Of a DNA stretch of 37,842 bases, positions 2,697 through 20,528 are shown piece by piece. The notes beneath the pieces were generated by a model. The model was not told where the DNA came from. It saw nothing but the letters and a program-made list of their open reading frames with translations, and did not search any database. Within the stretch, counting starts at the first letter, position 1. Each line of letters opens with the position of its first letter. Source of the DNA: Bacteroidota bacterium (lineage in GTDB: Bacteria > Bacteroidota > Ignavibacteria > Ignavibacteriales > SURF-24); the NCBI GenBank assembly GCA_030706145.1, contig JAUZPB010000033.1, positions 1 through 37,842 on the forward strand, in the 5' to 3' direction. The position numbers were made by a program, and so were the translations under genes.

Positions 2697-3635
2697 ATGG
2701 ATGAAGTCTTAAGATTAAAAGAATTTGAAGAACGTATAGAATCCGGCCAAGTAATAGAACCCAAGCAGTGGATGCCTGATCGCTATAGAAAACAGTTAAT
2801 CCGTATGATCTCACAACATGCTCATTCTGAAATTGTAGGTATGCTCCCTGAAGGAAATTGGATCACAAGAGCTCCTAGTCTTCGAAGAAAAATGGCACTG
2901 CTTGCTAAGGTTCAGGACGAAGCTGGTCATGGACTTTACCTTTATAGTGCCGCTGAAACTCTTGGCGTTGAACGCCACCATCTTATTGATCAGCTTCTGT
3001 GCGGAACTGCTAAATACTCGAGTATATTTAATTATCCTGCTTTGAGCTGGGCTGACATTGGTGTTATTGGCTGGTTCGTCGATGGAGCTGCTATTGTTAA
3101 TCAGACTATGCTTGCCAAATGCTCCTATGGCCCATATGCAAGGGCTAACCTGAGAATATGTAAAGAAGAGAGCTTTCATAAAAAACAGGGCTATGAAATA
3201 ATTGCTACTCTTGCTGAAGGAACACCTAAACAAAAGGAGATGGCTCAGGATGCTGTTAATCGCTGGTGGTTCCCTACGCTAATGATGTTCGGCCCTCCTG
3301 ATAGTGATTCACCTAATAGCGCTGAACTTATGAAATGGAGAATTAAATTAAAAGGTAATGACGAACTAAGGCAGAGATTTATTGACCTTACTGTCCCTCA
3401 GGCAAAAGCTATTAACATCAAGCTGCCTGATCCCCAAATTGTCTTTAACGAACAGACCGGTCATTGGGATTATAGCCCGCTAAACTGGCAGGAGTTTTAT
3501 GAGGTAATTAGCGGTAAAGGACCATGCAATAAAGAAAGACTTAAGGCTAGAAAACAAGCCCATGAAAACGGTAGATGGGTTAGACTTGCTTCTGAAGCCT
3601 ATGCATCTAAAAAACAAATTGATAACCTTGCTTGA
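2697..3635 (+). CDS. paaA: Phenylacetyl-CoA epoxidase, catalytic subunit PaaA
   Basis: PaaA is the diiron oxygenase subunit that adds one oxygen atom across the aromatic ring of phenylacetyl-CoA to give the 1,2-epoxide, acting in the cytoplasm with PaaB, PaaC and a reductase. The 312 residues match the usual length (about 310) and are conserved end to end with proteobacterial PaaA. Iron ligands lie in helices holding HAHSEIVG (Glu45), QDEAGHG (Glu75 and His78) and CKEESFH (about 155-161). This is the first gene of an eleven-gene collinear block and probably the promoter-proximal gene. There is a 31-base gap to paaB. No truncation or odd residue was seen. Confidence 0.96.
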
Positions 3636-3666
3636 TTAATTTTTCTGGAGGAAGATAAGAAAAATA

Positions 3667-3969
3667 ATGGAGAATCAGGACTTCTTTGACAGTCAGCTAG
3701 AGCTTTGGGAGGTATTCCTACAGCAGGAACAAGGTGGCCCTCATACACACGCCGGAAGCCTGCATGCTTCTGATGCAGAAATGGCTCTTCAGAATGCAAG
3801 AGACGTTTATGCAAGACGTGGACCTGTCTTTAATATCTGGGTCGTTCCATCTGTGATGATCACTTCTACTACTCCTGATGACAAGGGCCCATTCTTTGAC
3901 CCTGCAGATAGTAAGATCTACAGGCACCCCCAGTTCTATAAGGTCCCTAAAGGAGTAAGAAATGTCTGA
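3667..3969 (+). CDS. paaB: Phenylacetyl-CoA epoxidase subunit PaaB
   Basis: This small subunit of 100 residues is needed for assembly of the PaaABC epoxidase and has no catalytic metal of its own. Recognisable family segments include HAGSLHASDAEMALQNARD, the IWVVPS strand and the FFDPADSKIYRHP block near the C-terminus. GGAGGA lies about 14 bases ahead of the ATG. The 3' end overlaps paaC by 8 bases, indicating translational coupling. The position between paaA and paaC is canonical. Confidence 0.95.
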   Translation: MENQDFFDSQLELWEVFLQQEQGGPHTHAGSLHASDAEMALQNARDVYARRGPVFNIWVVPSVMITSTTPDDKGPFFDPADSKIYRHPQFYKVPKGVRNV

Positions 3970-4747
3970 AGTTCACCATAACAGATCTGTTAATAATTCC
4001 TTATTCGACTATTTACTCTGCATCGGAGATGATCTTCTTATACTTGGTCACAGGCTCTCAGAATGGTGTGGGCATGGCCCTATTTTAGAAGAAGACATTG
4101 CCCTTACAAACATTGCACTTGACTGCATTGGCGGAGCTTCAGCTCTGCTTCAGTTTGCAGGACAAATTGAGTGTAAAGGGAGAACCGAAGATGACCTTGC
4201 ATTCTTTAGAGAAGCCGTAGAATTCAAGAACCTCCAGATGCTTGAACTCCCAAATGGCGACTTTGCCTTTACAATAGCAAGACAATTTCTTTTTGATACA
4301 TTTGGATATTTCCTTTATGGCGAACTTTCTAAAAGCACAAATAAAGAACTTGCCTCTATTGCTTCAAAATTATATAAGGAGGTCGTCTACCACCAGCGCC
4401 ATTCTATTGAATGGGTATACAGGCTTGGCGATGGTACACACGAAAGTCATTCAAGACTGCAGGCTGCATTTGATGAATTGTGGATGTATACTGGCGAATT
4501 GTTTTCTGTGGAAGAAAACCATCTTATACTCCTGGAGGAAAAAATTATCCCGGATCTTACAAAAGTAAAACCTCAGTGGCATGAGCGTATCTCCGAAATT
4601 CTTTCAAACGCAACAATCGCTATTATGCCTGAGGAAGATCTCTATTTTTCGCGCGGAAGCCGAAAGGGACTACATACAGAATATCTCGGCCATTTACTCT
4701 CTGAGATGCAGATACTTGCAAGATCTTTTCCGGGGGCAAAATGGTAA
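3962..4747 (+). CDS. paaC: Phenylacetyl-CoA epoxidase structural subunit PaaC
   Basis: PaaC is a ferritin-fold relative of PaaA that lost the catalytic iron site and forms the heterodimer core of the epoxidase. The 261-residue protein is close to the family length of about 250. Family segments include LILGHRLSEWCGHGPILEED near the N-terminus, LFDTFGYFLY, and the C-terminal HTEYLGHLLSEMQ block. The ATG overlaps the end of paaB, and the stop overlaps the proposed paaD start by 7 bases (ATGGTAA), so the three genes are read as a coupled unit. Confidence 0.94.
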   Translation: MSEVHHNRSVNNSLFDYLLCIGDDLLILGHRLSEWCGHGPILEEDIALTNIALDCIGGASALLQFAGQIECKGRTEDDLAFFREAVEFKNLQMLELPNGDFAFTIARQFLFDTFGYFLYGELSKSTNKELASIASKLYKEVVYHQRHSIEWVYRLGDGTHESHSRLQAAFDELWMYTGELFSVEENHLILLEEKIIPDLTKVKPQWHERISEILSNATIAIMPEEDLYFSRGSRKGLHTEYLGHLLSEMQILARSFPGAKW

Positions 4748-14252: not shown

Positions 14253-14487
14253 TTATTCCCTTTAAGAATAATAAATGAAAAAAGAAATTATTATTGGTTT
14301 GTGATCAGGACAAATATAATAAACTCCTGCAATAAAGACCCAATAATTGCTTTAATTGATAAGACAATTAGGAATTAGAAACTATAAAACTGTATTATTA
14401 TGCAGAAAAATTGGCCCGAAATTCGAAATTGAGGCCAGAATTTGTTATCTTAGGGGCAAATCATTAACATGGAGTTATTTATTTTCG

Positions 14488-16254
14488 ATGAAGTTTAATA
14501 GTAGAACACATACTTGCGGGGAGTTAAGGGAATCAAATATTGATGAACATGTGGTCCTCAATGGCTGGGTCGATACAAGACGTGACCTTGGCGGGGTAAT
14601 ATTTATTGATCTTAGAGATAGATATGGCATTACTCAAGTTGTGTTTGAGCCTAATTATAATCTGGAAGCACATAATATAGCAAAGGATTTAAGAAGTGAA
14701 TATGTGATATCGATCGAAGGAAGAGTAAGAATGCGTCCTGAGGGTACTGAAAATCCTCAACTGCCTACAGGAAGTATTGATGTGATGGTTGATAGACTGG
14801 TTATATTGAATAAGGCTGTAACACCTCCTTTCCCACTGAAAGATGGAGTAGATATAAATGAGGATCTTAGACTTAAATATAGATTCCTGGATTTAAGACG
14901 CCCTTCTCTTCAGAGAAATTTGCTTCTGCGTCATAAGATCTATCAGGTAGCTAGAAAATATCTTGATGAAAATAGCTTCGTAGAAATTGAGACTCCAGTC
15001 TTAATGAAAAGTACACCTGAAGGAGCACGTGACTATCTTGTGCCAAGTAGACTCCATAAGGGTAAATTCTATGCTTTGCCACAGTCACCTCAGCAGTATA
15101 AACAGCTCCTCATGGTCTCTGGAATGGATAGATATTTTCAGATCGTTAAGTGTTTTCGCGATGAGGACCTAAGAGCAGATAGACAGCCTGAATTTACTCA
15201 GATTGATATGGAACTCTCTTTTGTCGATCAGGAGGATATCTTCCAGATCGTTGAAGGCCTGATGAAGAGCTTCTATAAGGAAATTAAAAATTATGACTTG
15301 CCGACTCCTATTAGAAGAATTCCCTTCGATGAGGCAATGGAGACATATGGAAGTGATAAGCCTGACTTAAGATTTGATCTTAAGATGACTACATTAAACG
15401 ATGTCCTCTCTAAGTCAACCTTCCGCGTTTATCAGGATGCAATTTCAAAAGGCGGCATAGTTACTTCGCTTGTCGCTCCTGGATGCGGTGATTATACTAG
15501 AAATCAGCTCGATGTTCTTACAGATTTTGTTAAAAAACTTGGAGCCTCTGGCCTGGTCTGGATCAGAGTTAAAGAAGAAGGCCTCGAATCTCCGACTGTT
15601 AAGTTCCTTACTGAAGAAGAGCAGAAGGGCATTATTGAAAAACTTAATGCAAAGCCTGGTGACCTGCTCTTTATTTTGTCTGGCCAAAAGCTTAAAACAC
15701 TCTCTATTATGGGATCTTTAAGACTTGAGATGGCAAGAAGACTAGAACTTATTAAGCCTGATGCAGAACCTGCCCTGCTTTGGGTTACTGACTTCCCTCT
15801 ACTTGAATGGGATGTCGAAACTCAAAGATATTATGCTATGCACCATCCATTTACATCACCTCGAATAGAGGATATTGAACTTATGACTACAGATCCAGGA
15901 AAGGTAAAAGCCCGCGCTTATGACCTTGTACTTAATGGAAGTGAAATTGCTGGCGGTAGTATTAGAATTCATGACAGTGAACTTCAGTCGCTTATGTTCA
16001 AAACAATCGGCATTTCGGATGAAGAGGCTGAATATAAGTTCGGCTTCCTTATGAATGCCTTTAAGTATGGTGCACCACCTCACGGTGGAATTGCTTTCGG
16101 TTTAGATAGAATGGCTATGATTTTTGCAGGCGAAGCTTCTATTAGAGAGGTAATGGCTTTCCCGAAAACTGCTAGTGCTACTTCTTTGATGGATGATGCA
16201 CCTTCCACAGTTTCCGAAGATCAGCTTAAGGAACTCCATATTAAGATTCGCTAA
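14488..16254 (+). CDS. aspS: Aspartyl-tRNA synthetase
   Basis: AspS charges tRNA(Asp). The 588-residue product has an N-terminal OB-fold anticodon-binding domain (starting RTHTCGELRE, with VLNGWVDTRRDLGG), class II motif 2 in CFRDEDLRADRQPEF, a bacterial GAD-type insertion in the middle, and motif 3 in GIAFGLDRMAMI near the end. The frame is open back to 14356, but the first 44 codons have no counterpart in the family, so the Met at 14488 is chosen. A perfect terminator hairpin follows. The 235-base spacer to divergent pdxB holds the promoters; TATCTTAG at 14446-14453 is a possible -7 element. Confidence 0.96.
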   Translation: MKFNSRTHTCGELRESNIDEHVVLNGWVDTRRDLGGVIFIDLRDRYGITQVVFEPNYNLEAHNIAKDLRSEYVISIEGRVRMRPEGTENPQLPTGSIDVMVDRLVILNKAVTPPFPLKDGVDINEDLRLKYRFLDLRRPSLQRNLLLRHKIYQVARKYLDENSFVEIETPVLMKSTPEGARDYLVPSRLHKGKFYALPQSPQQYKQLLMVSGMDRYFQIVKCFRDEDLRADRQPEFTQIDMELSFVDQEDIFQIVEGLMKSFYKEIKNYDLPTPIRRIPFDEAMETYGSDKPDLRFDLKMTTLNDVLSKSTFRVYQDAISKGGIVTSLVAPGCGDYTRNQLDVLTDFVKKLGASGLVWIRVKEEGLESPTVKFLTEEEQKGIIEKLNAKPGDLLFILSGQKLKTLSIMGSLRLEMARRLELIKPDAEPALLWVTDFPLLEWDVETQRYYAMHHPFTSPRIEDIELMTTDPGKVKARAYDLVLNGSEIAGGSIRIHDSELQSLMFKTIGISDEEAEYKFGFLMNAFKYGAPPHGGIAFGLDRMAMIFAGEASIREVMAFPKTASATSLMDDAPSTVSEDQLKELHIKIR

Positions 16255-16598: not shown

Positions 16599-17093
16599 AT
16601 GAATACAGGACAGTTATTATTAACTCTTGGAGGAATGTTCCTTCTCTCCATGGTCATACTAAGGACGAATACTACTTTTTTAAGTACGGGGAATGTAATG
16701 TATAATACAAAGTTCGGCGTCCTGGCCACTTCACTCGGCACATCTATGATTGAAGAGGCAAATAGTAAGGCCTTTGACGCAGCTACAGATACTAATTCTG
16801 TGAGCTCGCTGACTTCGCTTACAAGCCCTTCAGGTTTGGGGCCGGCTTGGGGTGAGGTTTATCCGAATTTTAATGACTTCGATGATTATAACAACTATAC
16901 AAGAATTGATTCTACTATGCCTTCTGCTGTTTTTAAGATTACATGCAAGGTTGGCTATGTCCTTCCTACAAATCCGGACGTCTTTGTAAACCAGAAAACA
17001 TGGAATAAGAGAATTCTTGTCACTGTCACAAGCCCTTCTATGAATGATACTGTAAGAATGTCCTCGGTATTCAGTTACTGGTTCTTCAGATAA
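16599..17093 (+). CDS. Pilin-like membrane-anchored protein 1 (PilV-like position)
   Basis: The 164-residue product starts with MNTG and a hydrophobic helix (about 5-24), then a polar helix with TKFGVLATSLGTSMIEEAN and a beta-rich C-terminal domain. This is the layout of a type IV pilin or pseudopilin, but the usual leader of basic residues and the Glu at mature position 5 are missing. It is the first gene of a three-gene operon; the next starts 17 bases downstream. The segment resembling minor pilin PilV is inferred from position and shape rather than from a firm motif. The function is unknown; an envelope filament or secretion-related role is the working idea. Confidence 0.55.
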   Translation: MNTGQLLLTLGGMFLLSMVILRTNTTFLSTGNVMYNTKFGVLATSLGTSMIEEANSKAFDAATDTNSVSSLTSLTSPSGLGPAWGEVYPNFNDFDDYNNYTRIDSTMPSAVFKITCKVGYVLPTNPDVFVNQKTWNKRILVTVTSPSMNDTVRMSSVFSYWFFR

Positions 17094-17110
17094 AGGAGAC
17101 TAAATATAAT

Positions 17111-17713
17111 ATGGGATTTAGTACATTACTCGATATTTTAGGTTCGACAGTCATTGGGGGACTGCTCTTTATGATCCTCCTAAGAATGAATGATACAGCA
17201 ACGCAGAATACTTTTACTTTTGCAGGCGAAGCTCAGGTTCAGCAAAACCTCGTCTCTGTTGTTGAACTTCTAGAATATGATTTTAGAAAAATCGGCTATT
17301 GCGCTGACTTTACTAAGATCCCTGTACCGTCAAAAGCTATTATTGCTGCAGATTCAACAAGCATTAAGTTTTTAACAGACGTCTATCCTGCCGATGGTGT
17401 TGTTGATACAATGCGTTATTATCTTGGATCTGCAGATGAACTTTCTGGAACCCCAAATCCTAGAGATAAAATGCTCTACAGAGTGGTCAATTCTGAAAGC
17501 CCAAAGGGCTCAAATCTGGGCGTTACAAGATTTAGCATTACTTATTTTAACGCCCTGGGGAATAAAATACCCTTCCCAATTTCTGTCCCGGGCGAGATTT
17601 ATACAATGGAAATTGACGTTAAAGTCGAAAATACGGCAGCTTACAATGAGGAGTATTCAAATGCCTTCTGGAGGCAGATTAGATTGGCTGCAAGAAATAT
17701 CAGAAACAGGTAG
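17111..17713 (+). CDS. Pilin-like protein 2 (PilW-like)
   Basis: The 200-residue product begins MGFSTLLDILGSTVIGG, a hydrophobic helix that starts directly after Gly2 as in a processed type IV pilin. The phrase QQNLVSVVELLEYDFRKIGYC (about 45-66) resembles the helix in PilW-type minor pilins, where aligned residues read as an acidic-Arg-x-x-Gly-Tyr pattern. The remainder is beta-rich and ends in FWRQIRLAARNIRNR. A good ribosome binding site (AAAGGAG) sits ahead of the ATG. The normal basic leader peptide is absent. Co-transcription with both neighbours is near certain from 17- and 14-base gaps. Confidence 0.6.
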   Translation: MGFSTLLDILGSTVIGGLLFMILLRMNDTATQNTFTFAGEAQVQQNLVSVVELLEYDFRKIGYCADFTKIPVPSKAIIAADSTSIKFLTDVYPADGVVDTMRYYLGSADELSGTPNPRDKMLYRVVNSESPKGSNLGVTRFSITYFNALGNKIPFPISVPGEIYTMEIDVKVENTAAYNEEYSNAFWRQIRLAARNIRNR

Positions 17714-17727
17714 AGGGAGTATAATTT

Positions 17728-18969
17728 ATGGGCGGAAAAGCAAGTTTATATATGGTGCTGGGATTTAGCCTCATCTTTTTGGTGGCAGGCTATAATTATG
17801 GCCTCCTTACCAATAATGCAGTCGATAATAACGTGAATTATTACTGCGAAACTATTGCTCATAATATAGCTGTAAGCGGAGCTAATATTGCTGCTAATCA
17901 GGTATTCTTAAATAAAAGCTGGACAACGGGCTATTCTAATGTCCCTTTCTCCAATGGCACTATTAACGTAAAGGTCGAAAACGTCGGTGCAAACAATATT
18001 AAAATAACTTCGACCGGAACATACCAGAATATCACAAAAAAGGTCGAAATACTTCTTCAACCAAGTAGCTATGCCAAGTTTGCCTACTATATGAACATTT
18101 TCCCTGGCAGCAGCTTTCTTTATACAGGAGATACTATTACAGGACCTTTCCATACACAGGGGAAACTAAACGTTCAAGGTTCGCCAGTCTTCCAGGGTAA
18201 GGCCTCTGCAAAAAATGGACTGAAACTCTTAGATAAATATACTACCCCTAAGTTCTATGGCGGATTTGAAAGCGGCGTTGATATTCCAATTAACTGGGAT
18301 GTTACTCAAACAAAATTAGCTGCCCTTTCGGGCGGTCATGTCTTTAACTACGGCGGGGCAGGCAAAATGGACGTCCGCATTACATATAACGGAAATGCAA
18401 CTGTTACTTATAGCTACAGTACAAATGGTGGAGGTACCTGGACTCCCGATTCTACAAAACCCTTAAGTTCCTTTGCACCAAATGGAATTATATATGTCGA
18501 GAAAGGTAATGTCTACTTAAAAGGAACAGTCACCGGCAGGAATACATTATTCGTCGACCAGTCCTCAGGTGTTGGTACAGGTAATGTATATATTGATGGT
18601 GATGTGCTTTATAAAAGCAACCCTTTGACTAATCCTTCAAGCCAGGATATGCTTGGCATTGTTTGCTCTAATAACGTTCTTATTAGTGACAACACTGCTA
18701 ATAGAAATAACGTTGAAATAGATGCTTCAATTTTTGCTTATAAGGGGGGCCTGGGCCTGGTAAATGAAAATATGCCCGCTAGCGGAACTCTTAAGGTCTT
18801 CGGCGGCATAGTCGAATACCAGGCTCAGAATACCGGAACTGTTAATGGATCAGGTAAGGTTACAAACGGATATCACGAAAGGATTATTTTTGATGAACGC
18901 CTTATGCTTACCTCTCCGCCTTATTTCCCGGCAACAGATAAATATGAAATAATCTCATGGCTTGAATAA
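17728..18969 (+). CDS. Pilin-like protein 3 with DUF4900-like C-terminus (PilX-like)
   Basis: The 413-residue product has an N-terminal helix (about 6-24), then a helix with YCETIAHNIAVSGANIAANQ that recalls PilX/PilV-type helices rich in small residues. From about 130 it becomes a repetitive beta structure with phrases such as TITGPFHTQGKLNVQGSPVFQG, GNVYIDGDVLYKS and LKVFGGIVEYQ. This alternating glycine-rich pattern and the end motif DERL...PPYFP recall DUF4900-type proteins and bactofilin-like solenoids. It is preceded by AGAGGGAG as ribosome binding site and closes the operon. It probably forms an extended surface- or periplasm-facing domain. There is no enzyme motif. Confidence 0.6.
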   Translation: MGGKASLYMVLGFSLIFLVAGYNYGLLTNNAVDNNVNYYCETIAHNIAVSGANIAANQVFLNKSWTTGYSNVPFSNGTINVKVENVGANNIKITSTGTYQNITKKVEILLQPSSYAKFAYYMNIFPGSSFLYTGDTITGPFHTQGKLNVQGSPVFQGKASAKNGLKLLDKYTTPKFYGGFESGVDIPINWDVTQTKLAALSGGHVFNYGGAGKMDVRITYNGNATVTYSYSTNGGGTWTPDSTKPLSSFAPNGIIYVEKGNVYLKGTVTGRNTLFVDQSSGVGTGNVYIDGDVLYKSNPLTNPSSQDMLGIVCSNNVLISDNTANRNNVEIDASIFAYKGGLGLVNENMPASGTLKVFGGIVEYQAQNTGTVNGSGKVTNGYHERIIFDERLMLTSPPYFPATDKYEIISWLE

Positions 18970-19976: not shown

Positions 19977-20528
19977 CTAAAATATCGTCGTATCAGGCTT
20001 TATTATCTGTGTAGGGTACTTATTTAGGAATTCTTCTTCTTTACTAAAGGTCTTAAAGAAACTGGACCTTATTTTTTTTAGATAAATTTCCGAGGTGTCT
20101 GTATGAAAGTAGATCGTCCTTGTAAATGTCCCACCTGTGTGCCGGCTAATAATTGGTATCGATTCGATCCTAAGGAAACTCTCTACAAATTCGATGTTTT
20201 TCCTTCCTGGTGAGTCTTTTATTGAAAAGTCAGGCAGAAGATGCGCCCCTCCAAAGATCTTTGCAATTAAATTTTGCTTTTTCCCACCAAGTGAAAATAT
20301 GCGGTTAAGCAGCAGCTCAACTGCATTTATACCAAAACGTGCACTGTCATTGTAGGTCTTAAGGTCTGGAGTGCCGGGTAAAAGTATATGGTTCATCCCA
20401 CCAATACGGGCTTTTTTTTCAAAAAAACAGACAGCTACACAGGAACCTAGTGTAGTATAAAGTGTGGCAGGCTCGCTTGAAGCGTAGTATTCACCAATAT
20501 TTATGTGTATCTTTTCCCTTACTTTCAC
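19977..20528 (-). CDS. cheD: CheD, chemoreceptor glutamine deamidase
   Basis: CheD deamidates specific glutamines on chemoreceptors and often works with CheC. The 183-residue product has the catalytic Cys30 in TTLGSCVAVCF and His47 in IGGMNHILLP, and family segments NDSARFGINAVELLLN and AKIFGGAHLL. The last 25 residues are a variable tail. It stands alone: no cheA, cheY, receptor or cheC is nearby. An orphan cheD next to valS suggests that the main chemotaxis or surface-motility genes lie elsewhere. It is divergent from valS, with 238 bases of spacer. Confidence 0.92.
   Translation of the reverse strand: MKVREKIHINIGEYYASSEPATLYTTLGSCVAVCFFEKKARIGGMNHILLPGTPDLKTYNDSARFGINAVELLLNRIFSLGGKKQNLIAKIFGGAHLLPDFSIKDSPGRKNIEFVESFLRIESIPIISRHTGGTFTRTIYFHTDTSEIYLKKIRSSFFKTFSKEEEFLNKYPTQIIKPDTTIF

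Follow-up and report, generated by a model that had tools for sequence, protein, structure and literature searches.

A trio of leaderless pilin-like genes likely belonging to a type IV filament machine in Bacteroidota

In reviews, the leader is the defining feature of type IV pilins and the prepilin peptidase a core part of the machinery; one review names only the Nanoarchaeota as a group without a detectable peptidase (PMC4471445, PMC10191384). Known type IV prepilins carry a class III signal peptide, with a leader of 6-26 aa ending in Gly (PMC4471445). In the standard route, the prepilin inserts with the leader inside, and the peptidase then removes the leader. Subsequently, the extension ATPase and the platform protein extract the subunits and polymerise them from a minor-pilin tip complex, and PilT powers retraction (PMC10191384).

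In this study, three adjacent pilin-like genes (P1, P2 and P3) were analysed in a stretch of 37,842 nucleotides (the window) from a member of the Bacteroidota. The trio resembles the T4aP minor pilins PilV-PilW-PilX (PilI-PilJ-PilK) in gene order and size range and in the predicted PilW/GspJ fold of P2. Unlike those pilins, however, it has no leader peptide, Glu5 or Pfam N_methyl motif, and pilY1, fimU and pilE are not nearby. The T2SS pseudopilins GspI-GspJ-GspK show the same tip-complex arrangement, but the trio's machine has a PilT-like ATPase and its pilins are leaderless. This machine shares homologous components with that of T4aP (PilB, PilT, PilC and PilMNOPQ), encoded in a single operon, and differs in that the peptidase is missing in most genomes, PilM and PilN are apparently fused and the major pilin is leaderless. 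The MSHA pilus locus also lacks a peptidase gene; however, MSHA genomes have another system supplying the peptidase (PMC6668835), whereas the present genomes usually have none. The system was widespread in the phylum, and its leaderless pilins together with the usual absence of the peptidase represent an apparent novelty within the known type IV filament class. No description of bacterial type IV pili lacking leaders or the peptidase was found in the open-licence PMC literature searched, and a prior description elsewhere is not excluded.

The trio and its predicted folds

The window is contig C257 of a draft genome (5.3 Mb, 345 contigs, 98.5% complete), in which P1 and P2 each occur once. The trio and its upstream neighbour are as follows:

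14356..16254, + strand: aspartyl-tRNA synthetase-like gene, outside the system and neighbouring the trio (identified by eye from the sequence)
16599..17093, + strand: P1, 164 aa, likely minor pilin in the PilV/GspI position, leaderless (MNTG-QLLLTLGG...); inferred from its place in the gene order, its size and its helix motif rather than from structure
17111..17713, + strand: P2, 200 aa, predicted PilW/GspJ minor pilin, leaderless (MG-FSTLLDILG...); from the AlphaFold2 model and fold matches
17728..18969, + strand: P3, 413 aa, likely large minor pilin in the PilX/GspK position with a DUF4900-like domain, leaderless (MGG-KASLYMVLGF...); from gene order and DUF4900 in homologs

A sequence-only reading had described three adjacent open reading frames whose products have short N-termini ending in Gly followed by a hydrophobic helix, and this description held with the coordinates correct (P1, MNTGQLLLTLGG; P2, MGFSTLLDILGSTVIGG; P3, MGGKASLYMVLGFSLIF; the starts of P2 and P3 also given as MGFSTLLDILGS and MGGKASLYMVLGF). 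Each product consists of 1-4 residues and then the helix. The reported lack of a basic leader and of Glu5 was also upheld, as was the absence of pilY1, fimU and pilE after the trio in the window. The DFRKIGY motif noted in P2 was confirmed and is conserved among P2 homologs. The DUF4900-like character ascribed to P3 held mainly through its homologs, 24 of the 32 aligned members being matched (best E 1.9e-8), with a sub-threshold Pfam match for the protein of the window itself (E 0.0012). Pfam scans of members of the P1, P2 and major-pilin families gave no convincing family, and PDB sequence searches yielded no useful match for P1, P3 or the major pilin. Homologs of P2 were present in 57 of 59 sampled relatives, far above chance; a related-locus search with P3 alone returned one named relative, SURF_24 Ignavibacteriales MAG, which makes it very likely that the window comes from the Ignavibacteriales.

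The genes next after the trio, identified by eye, are YqfA/hemolysin III-like and then, on the opposite strand, CheD-like (19977-20528, minus strand). Elsewhere in the window, two PaaA/PaaC-family proteins (2697-4747) lie in what is probably a phenylacetate degradation cluster; a thiolase and an aldehyde dehydrogenase-MaoC protein are encoded downstream of them.

Pilin folds were modelled only for P2 and for the major pilin of the operon described below. The AlphaFold2 model of P2 (pLDDT 87.5) predicted both the pilin helix and the beta head, the lack of which would have refuted the minor-pilin reading. In fold comparison, the ten best entries were all GspJ/PilW-type pilins (Z 9.5-12.2, the next being 3.9), the best solved matches including XcpW and EpsJ; Foldseek placed XcpV/XcpW first (E 1.3e-3). 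At the level of this model, P2 is predicted to have a PilW/GspJ-type fold and meets the criterion for a GspJ-type pilin. The model of the major pilin (pLDDT 90.3) comprised a helix at residues 2-55 (54 residues) followed by a four-stranded sheet. In a second-look alignment, its 14 best entries were all type IV pilins or pilin fusions, with Z 9.2 against T. thermophilus PilA4. Model residue 2 aligned on mature residue 1 of both T. thermophilus PilA4 and the N. gonorrhoeae pilin. Since Foldseek alone gave no E-value below 0.001 with this model, the match rests on the fold comparison (Z 6-9), and the model predicts that the protein adopts the canonical fold of type IV pilins, with its residues in register with those of mature pilins. 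The assignments of P1 as PilV and of P3 as PilX rest on gene order, size and weak motifs and are regarded as likely as part of the overall reading.

Missing leaders and the prepilin peptidase

The missing leaders were real and common to the whole system, including the major pilin, to which the sequence-only reading had not extended the loss. Within the window, P1 and P3 are each preceded by an in-frame stop at a distance of one codon from the start (TAA for P1), and the approximately 20 open codons upstream of P2 contain no start codon. A start-site survey covered distinct homologs of P1 (n=52), P2 (n=50), P3 (n=50) and the major pilin (n=71). An upstream in-frame stop was found for every homolog of all four families, at a median distance of 3-5 codons, and no alternative upstream start existed in 47/52, 47/50, 49/50 and 67/71 of them, respectively (90-98%). 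A hidden leader is excluded because these stops sit just upstream of the homolog starts. Mis-called start codons were likewise ruled out by the in-frame stops, by Shine-Dalgarno-like sites and by several major-pilin genes that use a TTG or GTG start at exactly the same residue.

With only 1-4 residues and stops upstream, these families do not meet the class III signal peptide criterion of classical prepilins. They also fail the Glu5/N_methyl criterion, and the N_methyl motif PF07963 had zero matches in any aligned member. Gly2 is nearly invariant in the major pilin (70/71 homologs). Asp at position 8 is kept in nearly all P2 members, and it is conceivable, by inference, that this residue substitutes for Glu5 in the P2 subunit.

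The usual absence of the prepilin peptidase had also gone unseen in the sequence-only reading. In a profile search, PF01478 was not found in the window's genome, in 55 of 59 relatives, including six in a single contig (G006, G020, G024, G026, G030 and G034), or in 90 of the 101 phylum-sample genomes having the leaderless major pilin; the same search was positive in 12 of 14 control genomes. The prepilin peptidase (A24) criterion of T4F machines was not met. Strong PF06750 matches occurred only alongside PF01478, and the weak PF06750 match of the window's genome (22 bits, contig C35) was rejected as a peptidase, being a radical SAM protein. Since the peptidase is usually absent, the proposed test of PilD-dependent processing is inapplicable in most of these species.

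An extra PilB of about 475 aa next to the peptidase was found in the four PF01478-bearing relatives (G003, G007, G028 and G049) and in no other relative (p 2e-6). Ordinary pilin-like genes with a leader and Glu5, exemplified by NNNKGFTLIEVL and NSELGFSLTELM, were present in six of eight inspected peptidase clusters (G028, G007, G255, G116, G203 and G289), and the canonical prepilins tested from G028 matched Pfam N_methyl; no canonical prepilin was seen in the two other clusters (G071 and G266). The loci around peptidases from one further family in the phylum (L106-L108) had no PilB match nearby and were of no use as a contrast. Where present, the peptidase usually sits in a separate cluster with leader-bearing prepilins. 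The few species keeping a PF01478 peptidase might in principle use it for both systems, and it remains possible that a peptidase with no relation to family A24 exists.

The filament machine operon and its linkage to the trio

In the window's genome, the operon lies on another contig (C322, locus L045). It carries two small proteins beginning MGQQQLLLIVLG, one of which has an alternative start four codons earlier. These major pilins are followed by PilC-like (458 aa), PilB-like (595 aa), PilT-like (408 aa), PilM/N-like (515 aa) and PilO-like (296 aa) proteins, a secretin (418 aa), a response regulator and a hybrid histidine kinase. The PilT-like protein scored above the TIGR01420 cut-off (328.0 versus 319.1 bits), meeting the T4aP retraction-ATPase criterion. 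The PilB-like protein matched PF00437 and also TIGR02538, at 426 bits against a cut-off of 676 bits. The PilC-like protein matched PF00482 (T2SSF) in Pfam and, below cut-off, GspF in NCBIfam. The secretin matched PF00263 (E 2.9e-24) and, below that model's cut-off, TIGR02515 (PilQ, E 1.6e-27). The machine is considered divergent because its PilB, GspF and PilQ scores fall below the model cut-offs. The T4F criteria of an extension ATPase and a platform protein, together with the secretin expected in diderms, were met in the operon, and that of the subunit pilin fold was met by the models of the major pilin and P2.

PilM and PilN are apparently fused into the 515 aa protein (L045:8210-10644), for which PilN was supported by a match to PDB 3jc8 (E 5e-5, residues 373-480) and PilM by only a weak match to the Amuc_1101 family (E 0.0018). 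The PilO/PilP assignment rests on position and a sequence motif only: a PDB search with the PilO-like family gave only chance matches, and the PilP/GspC-like stretch ending the 296 aa protein, GDPVYLGYLTKID, was not confirmed by search. Directly after the secretin gene (L045:11910-16588) lie the response regulator, the 1186 aa HAMP/GAF/hybrid histidine kinase and another regulator, and it is possible that these control the machine.

The trio, or its diverged second copy, adjoins the operon in G050, G056, G022, G012, G014 and G027 (L046-L051), lies a few kb beyond the pilin genes of the operon in G037 (L052) and is found within the operon, between PilB and PilT, in G140, G259 and G212 (L085, L089 and L093). 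Moreover, an aspartyl-tRNA synthetase-like gene is also near the trio in three operon-adjacent relatives (L046, L049 and L051), and this shared neighbour ties the detached trio of the window to the operon-linked trios. The phylum sample comprised 296 genomes; P2 was present in 90 of them, of which 88 also carry the MGQQQ major pilin (p 3e-58, the cells of the test counting genomes rather than independent events). The two order-level relatives without P2 (G018 and G035) also have no PilB and PilC, so the minor-pilin reading was not refuted by the trio occurring in genomes without pilus genes. In G040 (L100:7478-9841), a draft of 98% completeness, the trio is present near a contig end and a PilB/PilC match is absent. 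The suggestion of a divergent minor-pilin tip complex was supported as far as testable by the P2 fold, the operon linkage and the co-occurrence. The linkage and gene content were observed, and the trio likely belongs to a type IV filament machine, the filament itself being inferred.

A second, more diverged trio was observed (L051:15341-17557; L052:15897-18100; L049:3552-5618), sometimes beside the first trio and sometimes as the sole trio adjoining the operon; in its members, even the Gly is often missing (MQTNMF, MSELLD and MAYWLD). In G037, the major pilins and PilC are separated by small genes resembling toxin-antitoxin genes (by eye, nucleotidyltransferase-, PIN- and HicB-like; L052:7405-12380), and G107 has a second PilB-like gene immediately before its major pilins, on their upstream side (L084:4208-6043).

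Proposed explanation and its alternatives

The trio is likely a PilV-PilW-PilX (GspI-GspJ-GspK-like) minor-pilin tip complex of a T4aP-like filament with leaderless pilins and no prepilin-peptidase step. The gene content, the linkage, the missing leaders and the lack of a recognisable peptidase in most genomes were observed, and the two pilin folds come from models. The building of a filament, its extension and retraction, and the absence of any other protease trimming the N-termini are all inferred, and no experiment shows a filament in these organisms. The machine would consist of the leaderless major pilin, the PilC platform, the PilB extension and PilT-like retraction ATPases, the PilM/N-like and PilO-like proteins and the secretin. 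All four pilin families would be made mature-like. Because the start codon lies 1-4 residues before the classical mature residue 1, the hydrophobic helix may serve as an uncleaved signal anchor. Since the subunits are already mature-like, they would be inserted and assembled directly, with PilB and PilC pulling them from the membrane without prepilin-peptidase processing. For the MG- proteins, removal of the initiator Met is perhaps the sole trimming, and it is inferred that methionine aminopeptidase could expose the N-terminal Gly.

The strongest rival on the central claim is that the same machine exists but that its 2-4 residue N-termini are removed behind the Gly by a membrane peptidase outside family A24 that went unrecognised. 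Most members have a Gly in front of the hydrophobic helix, the near invariance of Gly2 in the major pilin might reflect residual processing, and a missing HMM match cannot rule out an unknown enzyme. However, several P1 and P2 homologs and the diverged copies lack the Gly (P2 starts include MSN, MTV, MAY and MSE), and the operon contains no recurring membrane-protease candidate, so this rival is judged unlikely.

A separate question from that of the leader is whether the machine forms not a pilus but a pseudopilus like that of type II secretion. The fold of P2 is about equally close to T2SS GspJ and to a T4P minor pilin, and the PilC-like protein is matched best by GspF. However, loss of PilT is described for T2SS (PMC10191384), and a pilus is favoured because a PilT-family ATPase over the NCBIfam cut-off is present in the operon; furthermore, the score of the extension ATPase is higher against PilB than against GspE. 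The pseudopilus thus appears improbable.

The idea that assemblies or HMMs missed a canonical peptidase and that ordinary prepilins have mis-called starts draws on the many draft genomes, including the window's own in 345 contigs, but it is very unlikely and already largely refuted by the six single-contig relatives without PF01478, by detection of the enzyme in the controls and in a few relatives with canonical prepilins, by in-frame stops that leave no space for a leader and by the TTG/GTG starts at the same position.

Returning to the leaderless filament, a bolder reading, towards which the balance leans slightly, is that an ancient, mostly vertically inherited T4P lineage of the phylum dropped the class III signal peptide entirely. 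Its major and minor pilins would be born mature, with uncleaved anchors and no basic leader, and would polymerise without prepilin peptidase or Glu5. If true, this would contradict leader cleavage as a universal, obligatory step of type IV filament assembly. A lineage without leader and peptidase makes testable why leader cleavage exists, what role Glu5 has and how pilins are oriented in the membrane, and genome surveys requiring a leader motif or peptidase will miss such pili. In the ATPase tree, the PilB proteins of leaderless operons formed one group (25 rows, support 86/97) that broadly tracks kinship, the depth of the split being uncertain owing to long branches, and the PilB proteins beside peptidases formed a separate group (11 rows, support 98/98).
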